Shown: positions 7,755 through 13,959 of the stretch, piece after piece
Position numbering within the stretch: position 1 is the first letter of the stretch
Layout of the letters: each line of letters begins with the position of its first letter
NCBI RefSeq assembly: GCF_030268205.1
Contig: NZ_BSQF01000002.1
Location: 558,001 to 622,000, forward strand
Direction: 5' to 3'
Length of the DNA stretch: 64,000 nucleotides
Source of the DNA: Allomuricauda sp. NBRC 101325
GTDB taxonomy: Bacteria > Bacteroidota > Bacteroidia > Flavobacteriales > Flavobacteriaceae
Made by a program: the position numbers and the translations under genes
The notes under the pieces: generated by a model
The model's input: only the letters and a program-made list of their open reading frames with translations
Database searches by the model: none
Told to the model about the DNA's origin: nothing

Positions 7755-7783
7755 TTGTTGTATTTGTTTTTTATTTATGTTTG
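7755..7783 (+). promoter_or_regulatory. Bacteroidota-type promoter for the polyamine operon
   Basis: TTG at 7755-7757 and TATGTTTG at 7776-7783 match the Bacteroidota -33/-7 consensus (TTG and TAnnTTTG) with an 18-base spacer. Transcription would start near 7790, giving a leader of about 270 bases before the arginine decarboxylase start. Confidence 0.6.
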
Positions 7784-7843
7784 CCCCATAAATGAGTCCA
7801 ATATAACTGGGCGCATTGCCTATTAGCTTTGAAATCTTTTTTC

Positions 7844-7924
7844 ATATTCGGGCTTTTGGGGATAAGGAAGTCTACCCAAAAAGCCGCCTTAAGGATAAGG
7901 CACCGAATATTAGGGCTGACTTCC
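7844..7924 (+). ncRNA. Structured leader RNA: three-way junction with pseudoknot (candidate riboswitch aptamer)
   Basis: Within the leader of the arginine decarboxylase gene the sequence forms an outer helix P1 (ATATTCGG 7844-7851 with CCGAATAT 7903-7910). Inside it are hairpin P2 (7852-7860 with 7875-7884, one bulged A, 14-base loop) and hairpin P3 (GCCTTA 7886-7891 with TAAGGC 7896-7901, AGGA loop). Seven bases of the P2 loop, GGAAGTC 7866-7872, are perfectly complementary to GACTTCC 7918-7924 just outside P1, giving a pseudoknot. All helices are mutually compatible. I could not match it to a riboswitch class I know. Function as an arginine, agmatine or polyamine sensor is inference from position. 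Confidence 0.6.
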
Positions 7925-7942
7925 GAAAAACAACACTTTTTT

Positions 7943-8064
7943 TACCGTGATTTCTCACGGACCCCTTTCTTTGTACCCAATACGGTATTTGAATTTCGTA
8001 TCTGAAAAAACTGTAATTCCAGAACATTTTTTTAGTTATTAATTACATTTTTCGAAATTCAAAT
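7943..8064 (+). promoter_or_regulatory. Expression platform candidate: alternative hairpins and start-codon-masking helix
   Basis: ATTTGAATTTCG at 7987-7998 is the exact reverse complement of CGAAATTCAAAT at 8053-8064, which contains the A-rich initiation region and the first two bases of the ATG at 8063. Two competitors exist: a local hairpin ATACG 7980-7984 with CGTAT 7997-8001, and TACCGT 7943-7948 with ACGGTA 7982-7987. The latter itself competes with CCGTGA 7945-7950 pairing TCACGG 7955-7960. This is the layout of a translational switch. Which state forms, and in response to what, cannot be decided by eye. Confidence 0.55.
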
Positions 8065-9517
8065 GAAGACAAAATATATCGATTTAATCGAGCAAACGTA
8101 TGATTTTCCACAAGAGGAATTTCAATTGGAAGACAATAAATTGCAGTTTCACGGTGTAGACCTTTATGGTTTGATTCAGCAATATGGAGCGCCTTTGAAG
8201 TTTACCTATTTGCCAAAGATTTCCGATAATATTCAAAGGGCAAAAGGCTGGTTCAAATCCGCGATTAAAAAGCATAAATACGCAGGAAAGTACCACTATT
8301 GCTATTGTACCAAAAGTTCCCATTTTGAGCATGTGCTAAACGAAGCCCTCAAGAACGATATCCATATTGAGACCTCATCAGCTTTTGATATTGACATTGT
8401 GAAGCACCTTAAAAAGAGTGGGAAAATTACCAAGGATACTTTTGTGATCTGTAATGGATTCAAAAGAGACCAATACATTCAAAATATTGCAAGTTTGATC
8501 AATGGGGGACACAAAAACTGTATTCCGATTATTGACAACTATGAAGAAATAAACCTTTTGGGACAATCCATTGAAGGTAAGTTTAAGGTGGGAATCCGGA
8601 TTGCATCAGAGGAAGAACCAAAGTTTGAATTCTATACCTCTAGATTGGGAATTGGATATAAGAATATTGTTCCATTTTACAATCAATCCATAAAAACCAA
8701 TCCTCAGGTGGAACTGAAGATGCTTCATTTCTTCATCAATACTGGGATTAGGGATACGGCTTATTATTGGAACGAACTTTTAAAATGTTTGAAGGTGTAC
8801 ATCAGCCTAAAAAAGATATGTCCAACCTTGGACAGCTTAAATATCGGTGGTGGATTCCCGATTAAAAACTCCTTGGCCTTCGATTATGACTATGAATATA
8901 TGGTTGAAGAAATCATCAACCAAATAGGACAAGCATGTGATGAGGCCGGTGTGGATGTACCTAACATTTTTACCGAATTTGGAAGTTTTACCGTTGGAGA
9001 AAGTGGAGGAACCATTTATGAAATCCTTTATCAAAAACAGCAGAACGACCGTGAAAAGTGGAACATGATCAATTCTTCCTTTATTACTACCATGCCCGAT
9101 TCTTGGGCCATTAGTAAAAGGTTTATTATGTTGCCCATTAACCGTTGGAACGAAGAGTATGAGCGTGTGTTGTTGGGGGGACTTACTTGCGACAGTGACG
9201 ATTACTACAACTCGGAGCAGCATATGAATGCCATTCACTTGCCTAAATTTAAAAAGGACAAGACTCTTTACATTGGATTTTTTAATACTGGTGCCTATCA
9301 AGAAAGTATTGGAGGTTTCGGTGGTCTGCAACACTGTTTAATTCCGCATCCAAAGCATATTTTGATCAATAAGGACGAGGAAGGTAATATTGTGACTTCA
9401 GTTTTTGCCAACCAACAAACTGCTGGAGAGTTTATGTCCATTTTAGGGTATGGAACCGAAAAAAATCCAACCACCATTCTTAAATCAAACGAGTTGCCTG
9501 CACACAGCAAGAACTGA
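8063..9517 (+). CDS. speA: Arginine decarboxylase, PLP-dependent, alanine-racemase fold
   Basis: A 484-residue cytosolic enzyme that decarboxylates arginine to agmatine, the first step of polyamine synthesis. Lys84 in the segment CYCTKSSHFEH is the expected PLP-binding lysine. SLNIGGGFP contributes to phosphate binding, and the segment GGLTCDSDD holds the CDxD motif of group IV decarboxylases, with its catalytic Cys. It is shorter than the 658-residue E. coli SpeA, as is usual for Bacteroidota members of the family. It is the first gene of a chain with agmatinase 20 bases downstream and a deoxyhypusine-synthase homologue overlapping that, so the pathway runs arginine, agmatine, putrescine and then a larger polyamine. 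Expression is probably controlled by the structured leader. Confidence 0.88.
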   Translation: MKTKYIDLIEQTYDFPQEEFQLEDNKLQFHGVDLYGLIQQYGAPLKFTYLPKISDNIQRAKGWFKSAIKKHKYAGKYHYCYCTKSSHFEHVLNEALKNDIHIETSSAFDIDIVKHLKKSGKITKDTFVICNGFKRDQYIQNIASLINGGHKNCIPIIDNYEEINLLGQSIEGKFKVGIRIASEEEPKFEFYTSRLGIGYKNIVPFYNQSIKTNPQVELKMLHFFINTGIRDTAYYWNELLKCLKVYISLKKICPTLDSLNIGGGFPIKNSLAFDYDYEYMVEEIINQIGQACDEAGVDVPNIFTEFGSFTVGESGGTIYEILYQKQQNDREKWNMINSSFITTMPDSWAISKRFIMLPINRWNEEYERVLLGGLTCDSDDYYNSEQHMNAIHLPKFKKDKTLYIGFFNTGAYQESIGGFGGLQHCLIPHPKHILINKDEEGNIVTSVFANQQTAGEFMSILGYGTEKNPTTILKSNELPAHSKN

Positions 9518-9537: not shown

Positions 9538-10476
9538 ATGAAAACAACCAAAACATATGGCGGTATTCCAAAGGAATACGGCTCGGCCGAGAAGGCCAAA
9601 ATTGTGCTATTGCCCGTTCCCTATGATGAAACAAGTACATGGGGGAAAGGAGCCGATAAAGGTCCGGATGCTTTTTTGGAGGCCACGGACAATATGGAGA
9701 CCTACGATATTGAGACTGATAGCGAGGTGTACAAAGAAGGTATTTATTTGGCAGATGCCATTGAAGACTTTGCTACTCCGGAAACTATGGTAAATGCCGT
9801 GCACAAAACGGTAAAGGAATACATCAAACGCAACAAATTGGTAACCTTGGTAGGTGGGGAACATTCCATTTCCATTGGAGCTATCCGTGCATTTAACGAG
9901 TGTTTTGATGACTTGACCGTGCTGCAATTGGATGCGCACACCGACCTGAGAAAGGAGTACAATGGTTCAAGATTCAATCATGCCTGCGCCATGTATGAAG
10001 CCAATGAAACCACAAACTTGGTACAAGTAGGTATCCGAAGTATGGACCATACCGAGACCTTGGTAATGGATAAGGACAAGGTTTTCTTTGCCCATGAAAT
10101 GGTTTCCGATGATTTTTGGATGGACTCTGCCTTGGAATTAATGACCGACAATGTCTATATTACATTTGATTTGGATGCATTGGATCCTTCAATAATGCCT
10201 TCAACAGGTACTCCAGAGCCTGGAGGATTGTTTTGGTATGAGACCCTGGACTTTTTAAAAAGGGTTTTTGAAGAAAAAAATGTAGTAGGTTTTGATATTG
10301 TGGAACTGTGCCCCAACGATTTGGATAAATCATCCAACTTTTTAGCAGCAAAACTCTACTACAAAATGTTGAGCTATAAATTTTTAAAAGAAACCGAATA
10401 CGGTGAAGAAGGATTCAATAGCGGAAAATCCGACTATAAGAAATCTGTAAACCAATTAGACGACTTCGATGAGTAA
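9538..10476 (+). CDS. speB: Agmatinase (arginase/ureohydrolase family)
   Basis: A 312-residue binuclear manganese hydrolase that should split agmatine to putrescine and urea. The metal-binding signatures are all present: GGEHSIS with His109, LDAHTDLR with Asp132, His134 and Asp136, and FDLDALDPS near residue 215. Its place directly after arginine decarboxylase favours agmatinase over arginase. The last residues overlap the start of the next gene by 8 bases, implying translational coupling. An arginase or a different guanidino-substrate hydrolase is the alternative, but the context makes agmatine the natural substrate. Confidence 0.9.
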   Translation: MKTTKTYGGIPKEYGSAEKAKIVLLPVPYDETSTWGKGADKGPDAFLEATDNMETYDIETDSEVYKEGIYLADAIEDFATPETMVNAVHKTVKEYIKRNKLVTLVGGEHSISIGAIRAFNECFDDLTVLQLDAHTDLRKEYNGSRFNHACAMYEANETTNLVQVGIRSMDHTETLVMDKDKVFFAHEMVSDDFWMDSALELMTDNVYITFDLDALDPSIMPSTGTPEPGGLFWYETLDFLKRVFEEKNVVGFDIVELCPNDLDKSSNFLAAKLYYKMLSYKFLKETEYGEEGFNSGKSDYKKSVNQLDDFDE

Positions 10477-11443
10477 CAAAGGAGAAATATCACAATTTAT
10501 TCAAAAGTATTTTTTACACTTCAACTCCGCGGCATTGGTAGATGCGGCCAAGGGGTATGAGGCACAACTGGAGCAGGGCTCCAAAATGTTGGTATCATTG
10601 GCTGGAGCCATGAGTACTGCGGAATTGGGCAAAATTTTTGCCGAAATCATCCGTACCGATAAAGTACACATCATTTCTTGTACAGGTGCCAACCTTGAGG
10701 AAGATTTAATGAACTTGGTAGCGCATTCACATTATAAAAGAGTGCCAAATTATAGGGATTTGACCCCACAAGAAGAATGGGATTTGTTGGAAAAAGGGTT
10801 AAATCGTGTTACCGATACCTGTATTCCTGAAGAAGAGGCATTCCGACGTTTGCAAAAACATATTTATGATATCTGGAAAGATGCCGAAGAAAAAGGGGAG
10901 CGCTACTTTCCGCATGAATTCATGTACAAATTGTTGTTGAGCGGCGTATTGGAGCAATACTACGAAATCGACATCAAGGATTCTTGGATGTATGCTGCTG
11001 CTGAGAAAAACTTACCTATAGTAGTTCCTGGCTGGGAAGACAGCACCATGGGTAACATTTTTGCCAGCTATGTGATCAAAGGTGAGCTAAAGGCCAGCAC
11101 CATGAAATCTGGAATCGAGTACATGGCCTTCTTGGCGGATTGGTACATGAAAAACTCAGAAAAAGGAATTGGATTCTTCCAAATTGGAGGTGGTATCGCT
11201 GGGGATTTCCCAATTTGCGTAGTGCCGATGTTGTACCAAGATTTGGAACAGACCGAAACACCTTTCTGGAGTTATTTCTGCCAAATCAGTGATTCGACCA
11301 CAAGTTATGGATCTTATTCGGGTGCGGTGCCCAATGAAAAAATTACCTGGGGCAAGTTGGACATTGATACCCCGAAATTTATTGTAGAATCGGATGCTAC
11401 CATCGTGGCACCGTTGATTTTTGCTTACCTATTAAACATGTAG
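10469..11443 (+). CDS. Deoxyhypusine synthase homologue, probable homospermidine/polyamine aminobutyltransferase
   Basis: A 324-residue member of the deoxyhypusine synthase family. In eukaryotes and archaea these NAD-dependent enzymes transfer the aminobutyl group of spermidine to a lysine of eIF5A; bacteria have no eIF5A, so a small amine acceptor is likely. The catalytic lysine is kept at Lys296 in ITWGKLDID, and the NAD-binding elements SCTGANLEEDL and GGGIAGDF are present. Translation is coupled to agmatinase (8-base overlap). Flavobacteria are known to contain homospermidine, and plant homospermidine synthases arose from this family, so condensation of two putrescines to homospermidine is my preferred role. 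That assignment is inference. Confidence 0.85.
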   Translation: MSNKGEISQFIQKYFLHFNSAALVDAAKGYEAQLEQGSKMLVSLAGAMSTAELGKIFAEIIRTDKVHIISCTGANLEEDLMNLVAHSHYKRVPNYRDLTPQEEWDLLEKGLNRVTDTCIPEEEAFRRLQKHIYDIWKDAEEKGERYFPHEFMYKLLLSGVLEQYYEIDIKDSWMYAAAEKNLPIVVPGWEDSTMGNIFASYVIKGELKASTMKSGIEYMAFLADWYMKNSEKGIGFFQIGGGIAGDFPICVVPMLYQDLEQTETPFWSYFCQISDSTTSYGSYSGAVPNEKITWGKLDIDTPKFIVESDATIVAPLIFAYLLNM

Positions 11444-11446
11444 ATC

Positions 11447-11761
11447 ATGGGAAACAGACAAAAAATTGCATTGAAAAGAGTAATCGTGGATTACAAAAAG
11501 TTGGATAACCGCATGCTCAACCTATTGGTGGAAAAGTTTCCCGATGGCTACGATGACGACGATATCGTAACCTTCCGAAATGCCAATAACGAGGTGGTAG
11601 AATGTGTGGAAGTGCGCACCGAGGATACTGCTTATTTGGTAAAAGTGAGCAAACGTTTGGTAATGGCCATGGAGGATTTTGATGATTCCGACAGCGAATC
11701 AGGTTCAGATGAAGAGTCTTCATTGGATACCGATGAATTGGAAAGCTCCGAAGAGGAGTAA
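11447..11761 (+). CDS. Small conserved-looking protein with long acidic tail, function unknown
   Basis: A 104-residue protein starting 3 bases after the polyamine-synthase stop. The first 70 residues form a compact mixed alpha/beta-like sequence beginning NRQKIALKRVIVDYKKLD with DGYDDDDIVTF and EVRTEDTAYLVKVSK. The last 30 are almost only Asp, Glu and Ser (DDSDSESGSDEESSLDTDELESSEEE region). No catalytic motif or signal peptide is seen. Acidic tails of this kind can bind metal ions, basic proteins or polyamines; given the operon, the last idea is attractive but untested. I recognise no named family. Confidence 0.75.
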   Translation: MGNRQKIALKRVIVDYKKLDNRMLNLLVEKFPDGYDDDDIVTFRNANNEVVECVEVRTEDTAYLVKVSKRLVMAMEDFDDSDSESGSDEESSLDTDELESSEEE

Positions 11762-11772
11762 CAATCTGATTC

Positions 11773-12576
11773 GTGGAAACTCAATCACATACAGAAACTA
11801 AGGCCATTGCTTTGCATTTGGCTTCCAATATTTACATCCCTGGGGTTAGAAAATCGATTCAAAAGGAGTTGGTTTTTGGCGACAGGGATGAACTTTTCTA
11901 TGCTGAAGGAGGTAGTTACCTCTATATATTCAAGTATGGAATCGTATCGTTTTTCGGATATGATGATGCGACCATCAATCAAATCTTGATGGAATTGAAA
12001 CCTTTTTGTGAAGATTGGCATGAATCGGATTTAACCGATGATCTGTTGGTGGAATTGGTGTCCGATGAGACCAAAACTACTGCTACGGGTAACCACGTTA
12101 CATTGCATAACTCGGATAAGGAAAGCATGCGTTTAACCCTTTTACATTTGTCTCAATCCGTTGCGCTCGACTATTTCGCAGGACTATCGGAACAGATCAT
12201 GAAGGAAACAAGGGCACATACTTCTTATTTGGAGCAAAATGGAAAACTTGATTTGGGCGGTAAGGCATTGAAAAAATATATTGCCAAGGTCTTGAACATT
12301 AATAACCAAATCTCGGAGAACCTTTATATTTTTGATTCCCATGAAGTAACTTGGGAAGATGGAGAGCTCGACCGATTGGATAGGGGCTTAAAGCAAATCT
12401 TTGATTTAAAGGAACGGTACAGAACCATAAAGGAGCAAGGGAACATAATTAAGGAAAACCTGAGCTTGTTCAAGGATATTATGGATCATAGGGAAAGCAG
12501 TAGACTGGAATGGATCATAATTATCTTAATTTTGGTCGAAGTGGTAGATTTGTTTATCATGCGGATTATAACTTAA
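11773..12576 (+). CDS. RMD1/DUF155 family protein with C-terminal membrane anchor
   Basis: A 267-residue protein with the RMD1 (DUF155) pattern: an N-terminal globular part with YLYIFKYGIVSFFGYDD, a helical middle with LSQSVALDYF, and a C-terminal hydrophobic helix (WIIIILILVEVVDLFIM, about 246-262). Yeast relatives are mitochondrial membrane proteins of poorly defined function. The start is a GTG at 11773, chosen because no in-frame ATG gives the full conserved N-terminus. It is 11 bases after the acidic-protein gene and 12 bases before the RimK-like gene, so it belongs to the same transcription unit. Confidence 0.8.
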   Translation: METQSHTETKAIALHLASNIYIPGVRKSIQKELVFGDRDELFYAEGGSYLYIFKYGIVSFFGYDDATINQILMELKPFCEDWHESDLTDDLLVELVSDETKTTATGNHVTLHNSDKESMRLTLLHLSQSVALDYFAGLSEQIMKETRAHTSYLEQNGKLDLGGKALKKYIAKVLNINNQISENLYIFDSHEVTWEDGELDRLDRGLKQIFDLKERYRTIKEQGNIIKENLSLFKDIMDHRESSRLEWIIIILILVEVVDLFIMRIIT

Positions 12577-12588
12577 AAAGAATACATT

Positions 12589-13959
12589 TTGGAGAACTTA
12601 AAGATTTTGGGTACGGAAGAATGGTGCCGTTTTGAGGATATGGGTATACCTGCTATAAAGGCACGTGTAGATTCTGGAGCAAAAACATCATCCATTCAAG
12701 CCAATAAAATTAAGATCTTCAGCAAAGGGTTGGAGCAATGGGTACGGTTTGAAGTAAACCCGTTACAAGATAACCGAAGCATTTCCATTTTATGTCAGGC
12801 CAAATTGGTCGATACGCGAAATGTGAAAAGTTCACAGGGAATTTCCGAAGAACGCCCTGTTGTAAAAACCCATGTAAATATTGGTGGGGACATTCATGAA
12901 ATTGAATTGACCCTGGCCAATAGGGATACCATGGAGTATCGAATGTTGTTGGGCCGAGAAGCCATTAATGAAAGGTATTTGGTTGACCCTTCAAAAAGTT
13001 TTTGTCAAGGTGATATATCCGATGAAGACCTTGATAAAAAATACAAACCCTACATGCCAGAAAAATCGGGGTTGACCATTGGTTTGTTGGCAAGTAACCC
13101 TGAGCTTTACAGCAACAAAAGAATTGTGGAAGCTGGTGAAATGCGTGGTCATAAAGTGGTGTTCCTGAATGTGGAGCACGCTTACATGAAGTTGGATGCC
13201 AGTACGCCCGAAATTCGATATAGGGGAGGGAACATTTTGGATCAGTTCGATGCGGTAATTCCCCGAATTAAACCTGCGGTTACCTTTTATGGCTGCGCCC
13301 TTTTGCGTCAGTTTGATACCCTTGGGGTCTATTGTTTAAATTCAGCGGATTCCATCAGTAAATCAAGGGATAAATTATTTGCGTCCCAATTGTTTTCCAA
13401 AAACGACATCCACATTCCCATAACAGGTTTCGCCAAATCGCCCATGGACACCAAGGACCTTATAAGAATGGTAAATGGTGCCCCTTTGATCATCAAATTA
13501 TTGGAAAGTACCCAAGGAAAAGGAGTGGTTTTGGCAGAAACAAACAAAGCTGCCGAGAGTGTGATCAATGCTTTTAAAAGTGTTCAGACCAACATTTTGG
13601 TGCAAGAATTCATCAAGGAGGCGAATGGACAGGATATTCGCTGTTTTGTGGTGAACGGAAAGGTGGTGGCATCCATGCAACGACAGGCACAAAAAGGGGA
13701 GTTCAGGGCCAATATCCATCAAGGAGGGGCGGCATCCAAAATTAAGATCACCGCAGAGGAACGCAAGTTGGCCATTAAGGCGGCAAAGGTGTTCAATTTG
13801 GCAGTGGCAGGGGTAGATATCATTCGTTCCAATAAAGGGCCTTTGTTGTTGGAGGTGAACTCGTCTCCAGGTTTGGAAGGTATCGAAAATACCACGGGCA
13901 AGGATATTGCCAACATCATGATCGAAACCATCGAAAGGAAATTAAAATACAGTTTGTAG
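12589..13959 (+). CDS. rimK: RimK-family ATP-grasp ligase fused to N-terminal retropepsin-like (RimB) domain
   Basis: A 456-residue fusion. Residues 5-140 are the ATP-dependent zinc-protease/RimB-like retropepsin domain with the signature Asp28-Ser-Gly-Ala followed by KTSS. Residues about 160-456 are a RimK-type ATP-grasp ligase with [34 protein letters not shown] and [14 protein letters not shown]. RimK adds glutamates to the C-terminus of ribosomal protein S6 in enterobacteria, while RimB is thought to trim or regulate this; a fusion puts both on one chain. The start is a TTG at 12589, the only sensible codon in the 12-base gap after the RMD1 gene. The target in this organism is not shown by the sequence. 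Confidence 0.87.

Follow-up and report, generated by a model that had tools for sequence, protein, structure and literature searches.

Does the leader of the arginine decarboxylase gene speA in Allomuricauda sp. NBRC 101325 hold a ligand-binding RNA, a regulatory peptide, or both in the same bases? An earlier note on this DNA proposed a compact, aptamer-like RNA with a pseudoknot between a promoter and speA, probably responding to arginine, agmatine or a polyamine. We examined this leader together with its homologues in other genomes. Positions refer to the window, the whole stretch of 64,000 nucleotides that was analysed, and the leader elements and operon genes described lie on its plus strand.

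Genomic setting of the leader

The leader precedes a set of genes for polyamine synthesis. The first gene of the operon encodes a speA-like arginine decarboxylase (8063–9517), which matches PF02784 above its cut-off (7e-15); among the NCBIfam models, those for arginine decarboxylase score best, yet stay below cut-off. It is followed by genes for an agmatinase (9538–10476; TIGR01230 above cut-off) and a deoxyhypusine-synthase-like protein (10469–11443; PF01916, 4e-43), possibly a homospermidine synthase, for which the best NCBIfam model, "homospermidine biosynthesis protein", scores below cut-off. ORF104 (11447–11761), also part of the operon, encodes a protein of about 100 residues with no assigned function. 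The operon leads from arginine via agmatine to putrescine and perhaps on to homospermidine, the last step being read from the NCBIfam match below cut-off. Downstream of the speA genes we also observed a DUF155 (RMND1-like) protein at 11773–12576 and, 3' of it, a RimK-type ligase fused to a RimB/Zn-protease-like domain at 12589–13959.

On the 5' side, TATGTTTG at 7776–7783 is what we take to be a Bacteroidetes-type −7 promoter element. Among 143 homologues, 84 carry the pattern TAnnTT[TC]G in the 88 nt that precede the leader ORF, where mononucleotide shuffling predicts 13.4. Leaders of lineages A and B further carry, by eye, a 5' hairpin (7792–7816 in the window) formed by AUGAGUCC and GGGCGCAU, with changes from GUCC/GGAC to GUUC/GAAC between leaders, a reading for which one early locus alignment lacked L012 and misplaced L017. 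By eye, the hairpin is absent from most lineage-C leaders.

The leader folds into a conserved pseudoknotted three-way junction

The four helices of the earlier note are found where it had placed them, and all 30 of their pairs are standard. P1 (8 bp; 7844–7851/7903–7910) encloses P2 (9 bp with one bulged A; 7852–7860/7875–7884) and P3 (6 bp; 7886–7891/7896–7901), while a 7-bp pseudoknot joins the P2 loop to the 3' flank (7866–7872/7918–7924). The element ends 138 nt before the speA ATG at 8063, in agreement with the distance of about 140 given before. A further helix of 3–5 bp, P0, pairs 7818–7820 with 7914–7916, immediately 5' of the 3' strand of the pseudoknot; it reads GCC/GGC in lineages A and B, UAGCU/AGCUA in lineage C and UAGUC/GGCUA in L027 and L030, with a few lineage-C rows and L038 misread by the pattern matching used for it. 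P0 seems to enclose the whole fold, mainly on the evidence of one compensatory column. For a small GAA/UUC hairpin between the ORF start and P1, variation was insufficient for a verdict.

Folding energy of the element alone is unexceptional (z −1.85; 7 of 200 shuffles as stable), and that of the 286-nt leader has a z of −3.96, with 0 of 200 shuffles as stable. Among the 20 closest relatives just two pairs are changed on both sides, which 117 of 500 shuffles reach. The case for the fold rests on wider comparison.

Two sets of homologues were used for this comparison. At least 118 loci were picked for the first set by a DNA pattern in which some bases of P1, the pseudoknot and P0 are prescribed; the fixed positions, codons and pairing levels of this set are therefore partly forced. 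Because of this, the tests were repeated on a pattern-free set of loci found through SpeA, covariance models or DNA similarity, with 60 further stretches added; it consists mostly of covariance-model matches and has the rows of A3 in common with the first set. Three duplicates were dropped, and L037, L238 and L239 stand outside the fixed-length tests. The conclusions held in this repeat, with stronger support for pairing and a weaker coding signal within the fold.

The earlier note had called for a search for compensatory changes in homologous speA leaders of Flavobacteriaceae, and many were found. In 30 distinct rows, 19 of the 30 pairs are changed on both sides, compared with 10.5 after shuffling and 5–9 with slid partners. 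The 92 pattern-free rows raise this to 26 of 30 (15.3 shuffled, 13–19 slid), with 184 double-changed cells against 39.6 shuffled and 41–68 slid; all nine pairs of P2, all six of P3 and four of the seven pseudoknot pairs are changed on both sides in these rows. Parsimony on a SpeA tree of 103 tips, which takes in loci chosen by the DNA pattern, counts 46 double changes (P1 4, P2 15, P3 23, pseudoknot 4), compared with 3, 6, 5 and 5 when partners are slid by −2, −1, +1 and +2. In an alignment of pattern-chosen loci, 14 of 30 pairs are changed on both sides (8.8 shuffled, 2–7 slid), and further pair types do not exceed shuffles (60 of 500). Pseudoknot pairs among homologues include AGG/TCC, AAG/TCT and AGA/TTC. 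The leader of this metabolic operon thus carries a conserved, covarying RNA structure.

Conservation is uneven across the fold. The inner pairs of P1 are conserved, and the pattern-free rows contain near-invariant pairs: an A-U (92/92) and a G-C (91/92) in the pseudoknot, and a G-C in P1 (91/92). Conservation is poor in the outer part of P1, where columns 5 and 6 fail to pair in 78/92 and 34/92 rows, and the last pseudoknot pair fails in 84/92 rows of the pattern-free alignment; the outer P1 pairs and this last pair are not general to the element. In lineage C, the largest with 105 of 137 cores, the pseudoknot has 6 bp and P2 has no bulge.

The earlier note could not match this RNA to the guanidine, purine, preQ1, SAM, TPP, FMN or cobalamin consensus. 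Using Rfam 15 at gathering score, we likewise obtained no matches in the window or in seven homologous loci, and known riboswitch classes were rejected on this ground; with E up to 10, the leader gave four sub-threshold matches, to three eukaryotic RNA models and PrrB_RsmZ. An explanation by tRNA-like false positives was set aside, as no tRNA was found in 18 loci. Both findings that would have counted against the proposal, a lack of compensatory changes or a match to a known non-riboswitch family, thus failed to appear.

The fold lies within a conserved leader ORF

Where the proposal needs revision is in its non-coding character. The fold sits inside an ORF of 58 codons with a TTG start and a TGA stop (7829–8005; working name speAL; LKSFFIFGLLGIRKSTQKAALRIRHRILGLTSEKQHFFYRDFSRTPFFVPNTVFEFRI), whose first 33 residues it would in part specify. 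This ORF ends in FEFRI-UGA, 57 nt 5' of speA in the window. The conserved pseudoknotted junction therefore stands, on the strength of its compensatory changes, while the non-coding part of the claim is not supported, and a purely non-coding aptamer was rejected because of the conserved leader ORF.

The ORF is conserved in start, length and end. In the pattern-free set, 139 of 140 non-redundant homologues start in frame (TTG 91, ATG 38, GTG 10). Only L238 departs from this, its TTG lying one base upstream and opening a 55-codon frame. Of these 139 frames, 130 close after 50–60 codons and nine after 63–80, and stops occur in frame +1 of 139/139 and frame +2 of 138/139 leaders. The leader stop is UGA in 125/139, compared with 15 of 75 speA genes. 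The last residue is I or V in 129/139, the final pair being RI, QI, QV or RV in 103/139, and residues frequent among 137 leaders are F7 (130), G8 (133), K14 (133), S15 (127), R26 (130) and L30 (130). Among the 143 non-redundant members of the first set, the frame beginning 12 nt 5' of the modelled core starts with TTG in 86, ATG in 53 and GTG in 4; two frames run off the locus, and 140 of the other 141 close after 52–60 codons and one after 76. Pfam and NCBIfam gave no match for three leader peptides. A conserved short ORF precedes speA, as in leader-peptide attenuators.

Substitution patterns separate the two halves of the leader. Beyond the fold, pN/pS in five classes of at least 6 members each is 0.43 in lineage A, 0.62 in B and 0.62, 0.54 and 0.49 in C divided by length, against 0.90–1.28 in the other frames, and 39–43% of changes fall at third codon positions (first set, pN/pS 0.29–0.54). 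Within the fold, where the coding signal is weak, the in-frame value is 0.56 in lineage A (other frames 1.68 and 0.84) and 0.60 in B (1.16 and 0.86); lineage C shows no coding signal there by this test (0.79 in frame, 0.79 and 0.77 in the others). The second half of the leader is held as protein and the first half largely as RNA. For lineage C, selection on the first half may act chiefly on the RNA, and as far as the pN/pS test shows solely on it.

Codon choice within the fold goes beyond what the peptide demands. Random synonymous recoding that follows the codon usage of the cores themselves leaves 70, 61 and 64% of pairing in lineages A, B and C, compared with the observed 94, 85 and 93% (mean z 3.9, 3.5 and 4.1); slid partners give z of −0.7 to 1.8. 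Lineage-specific pairing registers were used here and for the SpeA tree. In the window, none of 20,000 synonymous recodings reaches 30 pairs (mean 20.2). Permuting synonymous codons within columns gave values as high as observed in 0/500 runs for all four helices in lineage C (pattern-free set), for P2 and P3 in lineage B and for the pseudoknot in lineage A, where P3 had 5/500; P1 and P2 in lineage A, and P1 (63/500) and the pseudoknot (166/500) in lineage B, were not significant. These synonymous nulls rule out that the RNA is a mere by-product of coding. We also considered a programmed −1 frameshift, as many A and B leaders have an in-frame U UUU UUC before P1; the lineage-C leaders examined lack this heptamer, so frameshifting is not general.

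As far as sampled, the element is confined to Flavobacteriaceae and mostly precedes speA

By DNA similarity, the element was found in 20 of 59 genomes, its own included, all of the same genus. With a first covariance model, 151 of 397 family genomes gave a match (E up to 0.1). A second model matched 10 of 296 genomes of the order, all ten in Flavobacteriaceae, and 2 of 395 of the class, namely the window's own and L059, a weak match outside the family (27.6 bits, without a start codon) that we took as chance and dropped from later counts. Because the order and class searches add only family members besides L059, the element is a family-level one as far as sampled. When seven operon proteins were looked for downstream, SpeA came first in 141 of the 151 matches; of the remaining ten, four run off the locus, one is the weak L059 and five have another context.

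In one sample of 120 family genomes, 79 encode SpeA. The first model matches 46 of these and the second matches 8 of the 33 others, a total of 54 of 79, leaving 25 without an element match in the standard searches. An exhaustive scan of 9 of the 33 loci returned G073, also matched by the second model, and faint matches in G082 (25.6 bits) and G088 (23.9 bits).

Predicted outputs differ between lineages

How could the leader act on speA? In the window, the prediction is that a strand within the last leader codons (7986–7998) pairs with the bases around the speA start, AUG included (8053–8065), through 12 Watson–Crick pairs (7987–7998/8053–8064) and U7986–G8065. To compare leaders, speA starts were assigned by ATG search in 118 of 134 cases (first set) and 120 of 135 (pattern-free); the leader ORF ends a median of 74 nt (46–188) before the assigned start, and leaders with more than 130 nt here were left out of the pairing tests (13/118 and 5/119). 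Predicted pairing of the speA start with the last 48 nt of the ORF is 0.71 in lineage A (20 leaders; 0.25 shuffled) and 0.55 in B (9 leaders; 0.20 shuffled), and hardly above shuffled in C (0.21 against 0.15; 85 leaders). The corresponding first-set predictions for A, B and C are 0.68, 0.51 and 0.15, against 0.22, 0.20 and 0.12.

Terminator-like hairpins between the ORF and speA are distributed differently. In the pattern-free set they occur in 2/20 lineage-A leaders (0.7 expected), 2/11 of B (0.9) and 16/88 of C (3.7), and in the first set in 1/22 (0.6), 8/38 (2.6) and 19/58 (1.8), respectively. An intrinsic terminator was rejected as the general output; in lineage C such hairpins are in excess. 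Many lineage-C leaders have neither start pairing nor a terminator-like hairpin by these tests. Start pairing in A and B together with the terminator excess in C suggests that a common front end may serve more than one output, hiding of the start in A and B and terminators in part of C.

The stretch between the ORF stop and speA shows further local features. Aquimarina leaders, including L070, L109, L146 and L177, have 141–149 nt here that look alike by eye, which suggests an extra element in this stretch. In L134, from an Aquimarina genome, a 42-nt stretch with a long hairpin stands right after the leader ORF stop.

A proposed dual-coded attenuator and its alternatives

We propose, as the most economical reading and at a probability of roughly 0.7, that this cis-acting leader of the polyamine operon is a dual-coded translational attenuator of arginine decarboxylase. 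Translation would begin within the RNA domain, at the TTG of 7829, and ribosomes would have to melt P1–P3 and the pseudoknot to make the 58-codon peptide. In the window's lineage, pairing of 7986–7998 with 8053–8065 would hide the speA AUG. A ribosome held at or near the leader UGA would cover the anti-start strand and expose the speA start, whereas with no ribosome at the UGA, or with its quick release, speA would stay closed. The 5' pseudoknotted RNA would govern the frequency or speed at which ribosomes load onto the leader and traverse it. Arginine or a polyamine is the probable signal, acting through the arginine codons, the nascent chain or the RNA. The sequences themselves show the conserved ORF, a fold that exceeds coding need and the position before speA, with start pairing in lineages A and B as a prediction, whereas translation, stalling, the direction of control and the signal are inferred. 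Support for sensing by the ribosome, through arginine codons or the nascent chain, is about equal to that for an aptamer. Several findings speak against the proposal: start pairing hardly exceeds shuffles in lineage C, the largest; the coding signal within the fold is weak, and absent in C; 25 of the 79 sampled genomes with SpeA gave no match in standard searches; and some copies retain the core without the usual C-terminus.

The strongest alternative is a candidate riboswitch in which P0–P3 and the pseudoknot form an aptamer for arginine, agmatine, putrescine or homospermidine that controls the ORF, the peptide being secondary. The compact junction with its nearly fixed parts in the pattern-free rows fits this, as does the lineage-C core, which lacks a coding signal. 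So do copies of the element away from speA, found before ORF104 in five loci (L026, L080, L111, L212 and L213) from Kordia, Flavivirga, Aquimarina and genus g39. Kordia algicida has one copy before speA and another before ORF104 and a RimK-like gene; the Aquimarina pacifica copy precedes a short DHS-like match and ORF104, that of Flavivirga algicola precedes ORF104, and so do the copies in two g39 genomes, one of which, G077, has no SpeA match while the other falls outside the 120-genome SpeA sample. Divergent second copies in the genus Kordia (L036, 1128–1214, minus strand; L061, 5947–6033, plus strand) lie opposite the speA copy and precede a protein of 100 residues with no assigned function, to which the genome of L036 (L179) adds a 475-residue protein without a Pfam match, a GSH-S-type ATP-grasp ligase and an AstE/AspA-type hydrolase. 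In six copies (L026, L036, L061, L080, L212 and L213) the 5' core persists while the peptide lacks its usual C-terminus. That this holds for most copies away from speA favours an RNA role of its own. The part beyond the fold, however, evolves as protein, which an aptamer leaves to be explained, and we hold this reading to be possible, with the odds somewhat against it.

By analogy with speFL, the leader might instead encode a metabolite-sensing arrest peptide whose C-terminus would stall the ribosome at the UGA, with the 5' RNA merely tuning translation speed. The UGA bias, the final I or V and the purifying selection in the second half of the leader are consistent with such a peptide. So is G082 (L204), upstream of speA, which keeps the C-terminus SQHSNGFVPTTHTQIRI while its N-terminal half and its RNA core, faintly matched in the exhaustive scan but not in the standard search with the second model, have diverged; this suggests that the two halves of the leader are separable modules. 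The same copies that retain the core without the usual C-terminus speak against it, and an arrest peptide of this kind appears rather unlikely.

Two overlapping sensors might also be combined, with a putative aptamer inside the ORF of an arrest or attenuation peptide. Such a leader would join a polyamine input through the RNA to an arginine or nascent-chain input through the ribosome, would drive start hiding in A and B and terminators in part of C, and would govern a regulon of speA, ORF104 and the Kordia ATP-grasp operons; in this full form we consider it unlikely.

Arginine attenuation, modelled on Salmonella orf34, would require no direct ligand binding: low arginine would cause pausing at arginine codons and thereby refolding. 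The leader peptides are richer in arginine (8.1% of residues for the pattern-free leaders, 8.9% for those of the first set) than SpeA, which has 2.5%, and AGG and CGA codons are commoner in the leader than in speA. Yet the RNA fold may itself account for the skewed codons and the basic residues may serve the exit tunnel, which makes this explanation decidedly unlikely. That the ORF is an untranslated by-product of RNA conservation, to which the lineage-C core without a coding signal might point, is most improbable: the start codons, the place of the stop, its bias towards UGA and the codon signature of the part beyond the fold all speak against it.

Comparison with known leaders

As a dual-coded attenuator, the speA leader would resemble several described systems. 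The closest in principle is Salmonella orf34, or speFL in E. coli, a leader ORF of 34 codons. It stands before speF in enterobacteria, whereas here the ORFs lie before speA and span 50–80 codons, mostly 50–60. Both are leader ORFs with arginine codons before a polyamine decarboxylase gene (PMC6386406, PMC7815308), while the orf34/speFL passages describe no pseudoknotted three-way junction in the coding part (PMC7815308). In Salmonella, translation of orf34 is reported to counter Rho and to assist in opening a structure that masks the ribosome-binding site of speF, with its arginine codons mediating regulation by arginine (PMC6386406). Judged by length, gene and host, and set apart on these rather than by peptide sequence, the speA leader would be akin to orf34/speFL in principle without being a member.

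The nearest published pairing of a pseudoknot with a uORF before a polyamine decarboxylase gene that we found is, from the passages describing it, the odc1 (uORF-25-1) motif, which likewise has a conserved UUG-start uORF (PMC8632094). It differs in fold, peptide and host, as described there: it occurs in Alphaproteobacteria and has one hairpin and an 11-residue peptide, the main UUG coming just after the uORF start (PMC8632094). An 11-residue uORF whose UUG stands two bases before the main UUG is not what we see here, with 50–80 codons. The uORFC-6-1 motif of hflX, in the same source's description, shares a covarying RNA wholly 3' of the uORF start codon, but is found mostly in Bacillales and with another peptide (PMC8632094).

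Other likenesses are partial, again as far as the passages in question describe them. The spermidine riboswitch, a SAM-I variant, also precedes polyamine biosynthesis genes, but has SAM-I architecture and acts by transcription termination (PMC10853860); the architecture here differs, and SAM-I matched neither the window at gathering score nor the leader when E was allowed to reach 10. In the M. tuberculosis metE and ppe2 B12 riboswitches, a translated short ORF in or next to the aptamer modulates expression, although these sense B12 and control genes other than polyamine genes (PMC11260477). In E. coli mdtU-mdtJI, which is linked to spermidine, RNA that overlaps the conserved C-terminal end of the uORF is predicted to pair with the ribosome-binding site downstream, much as is predicted here for lineages A and B, but the genes (mdtJI) and the host are different (PMC7815308).

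Implications for polyamine control in Flavobacteriaceae

In open-licence PMC full text we recognised no report of this leader element. If the dual-coded attenuator holds true, it would be an unrelated counterpart of speFL for polyamine control in a widespread bacterial family. The leader also illustrates with unusual clarity how a single sequence can be under constraint as a pseudoknotted RNA and, at the same time, within a leader ORF, which suits it well to testing whether sensing lies with the RNA, with the peptide or with both. The element also links the uncharacterised protein ORF104 to polyamine metabolism.
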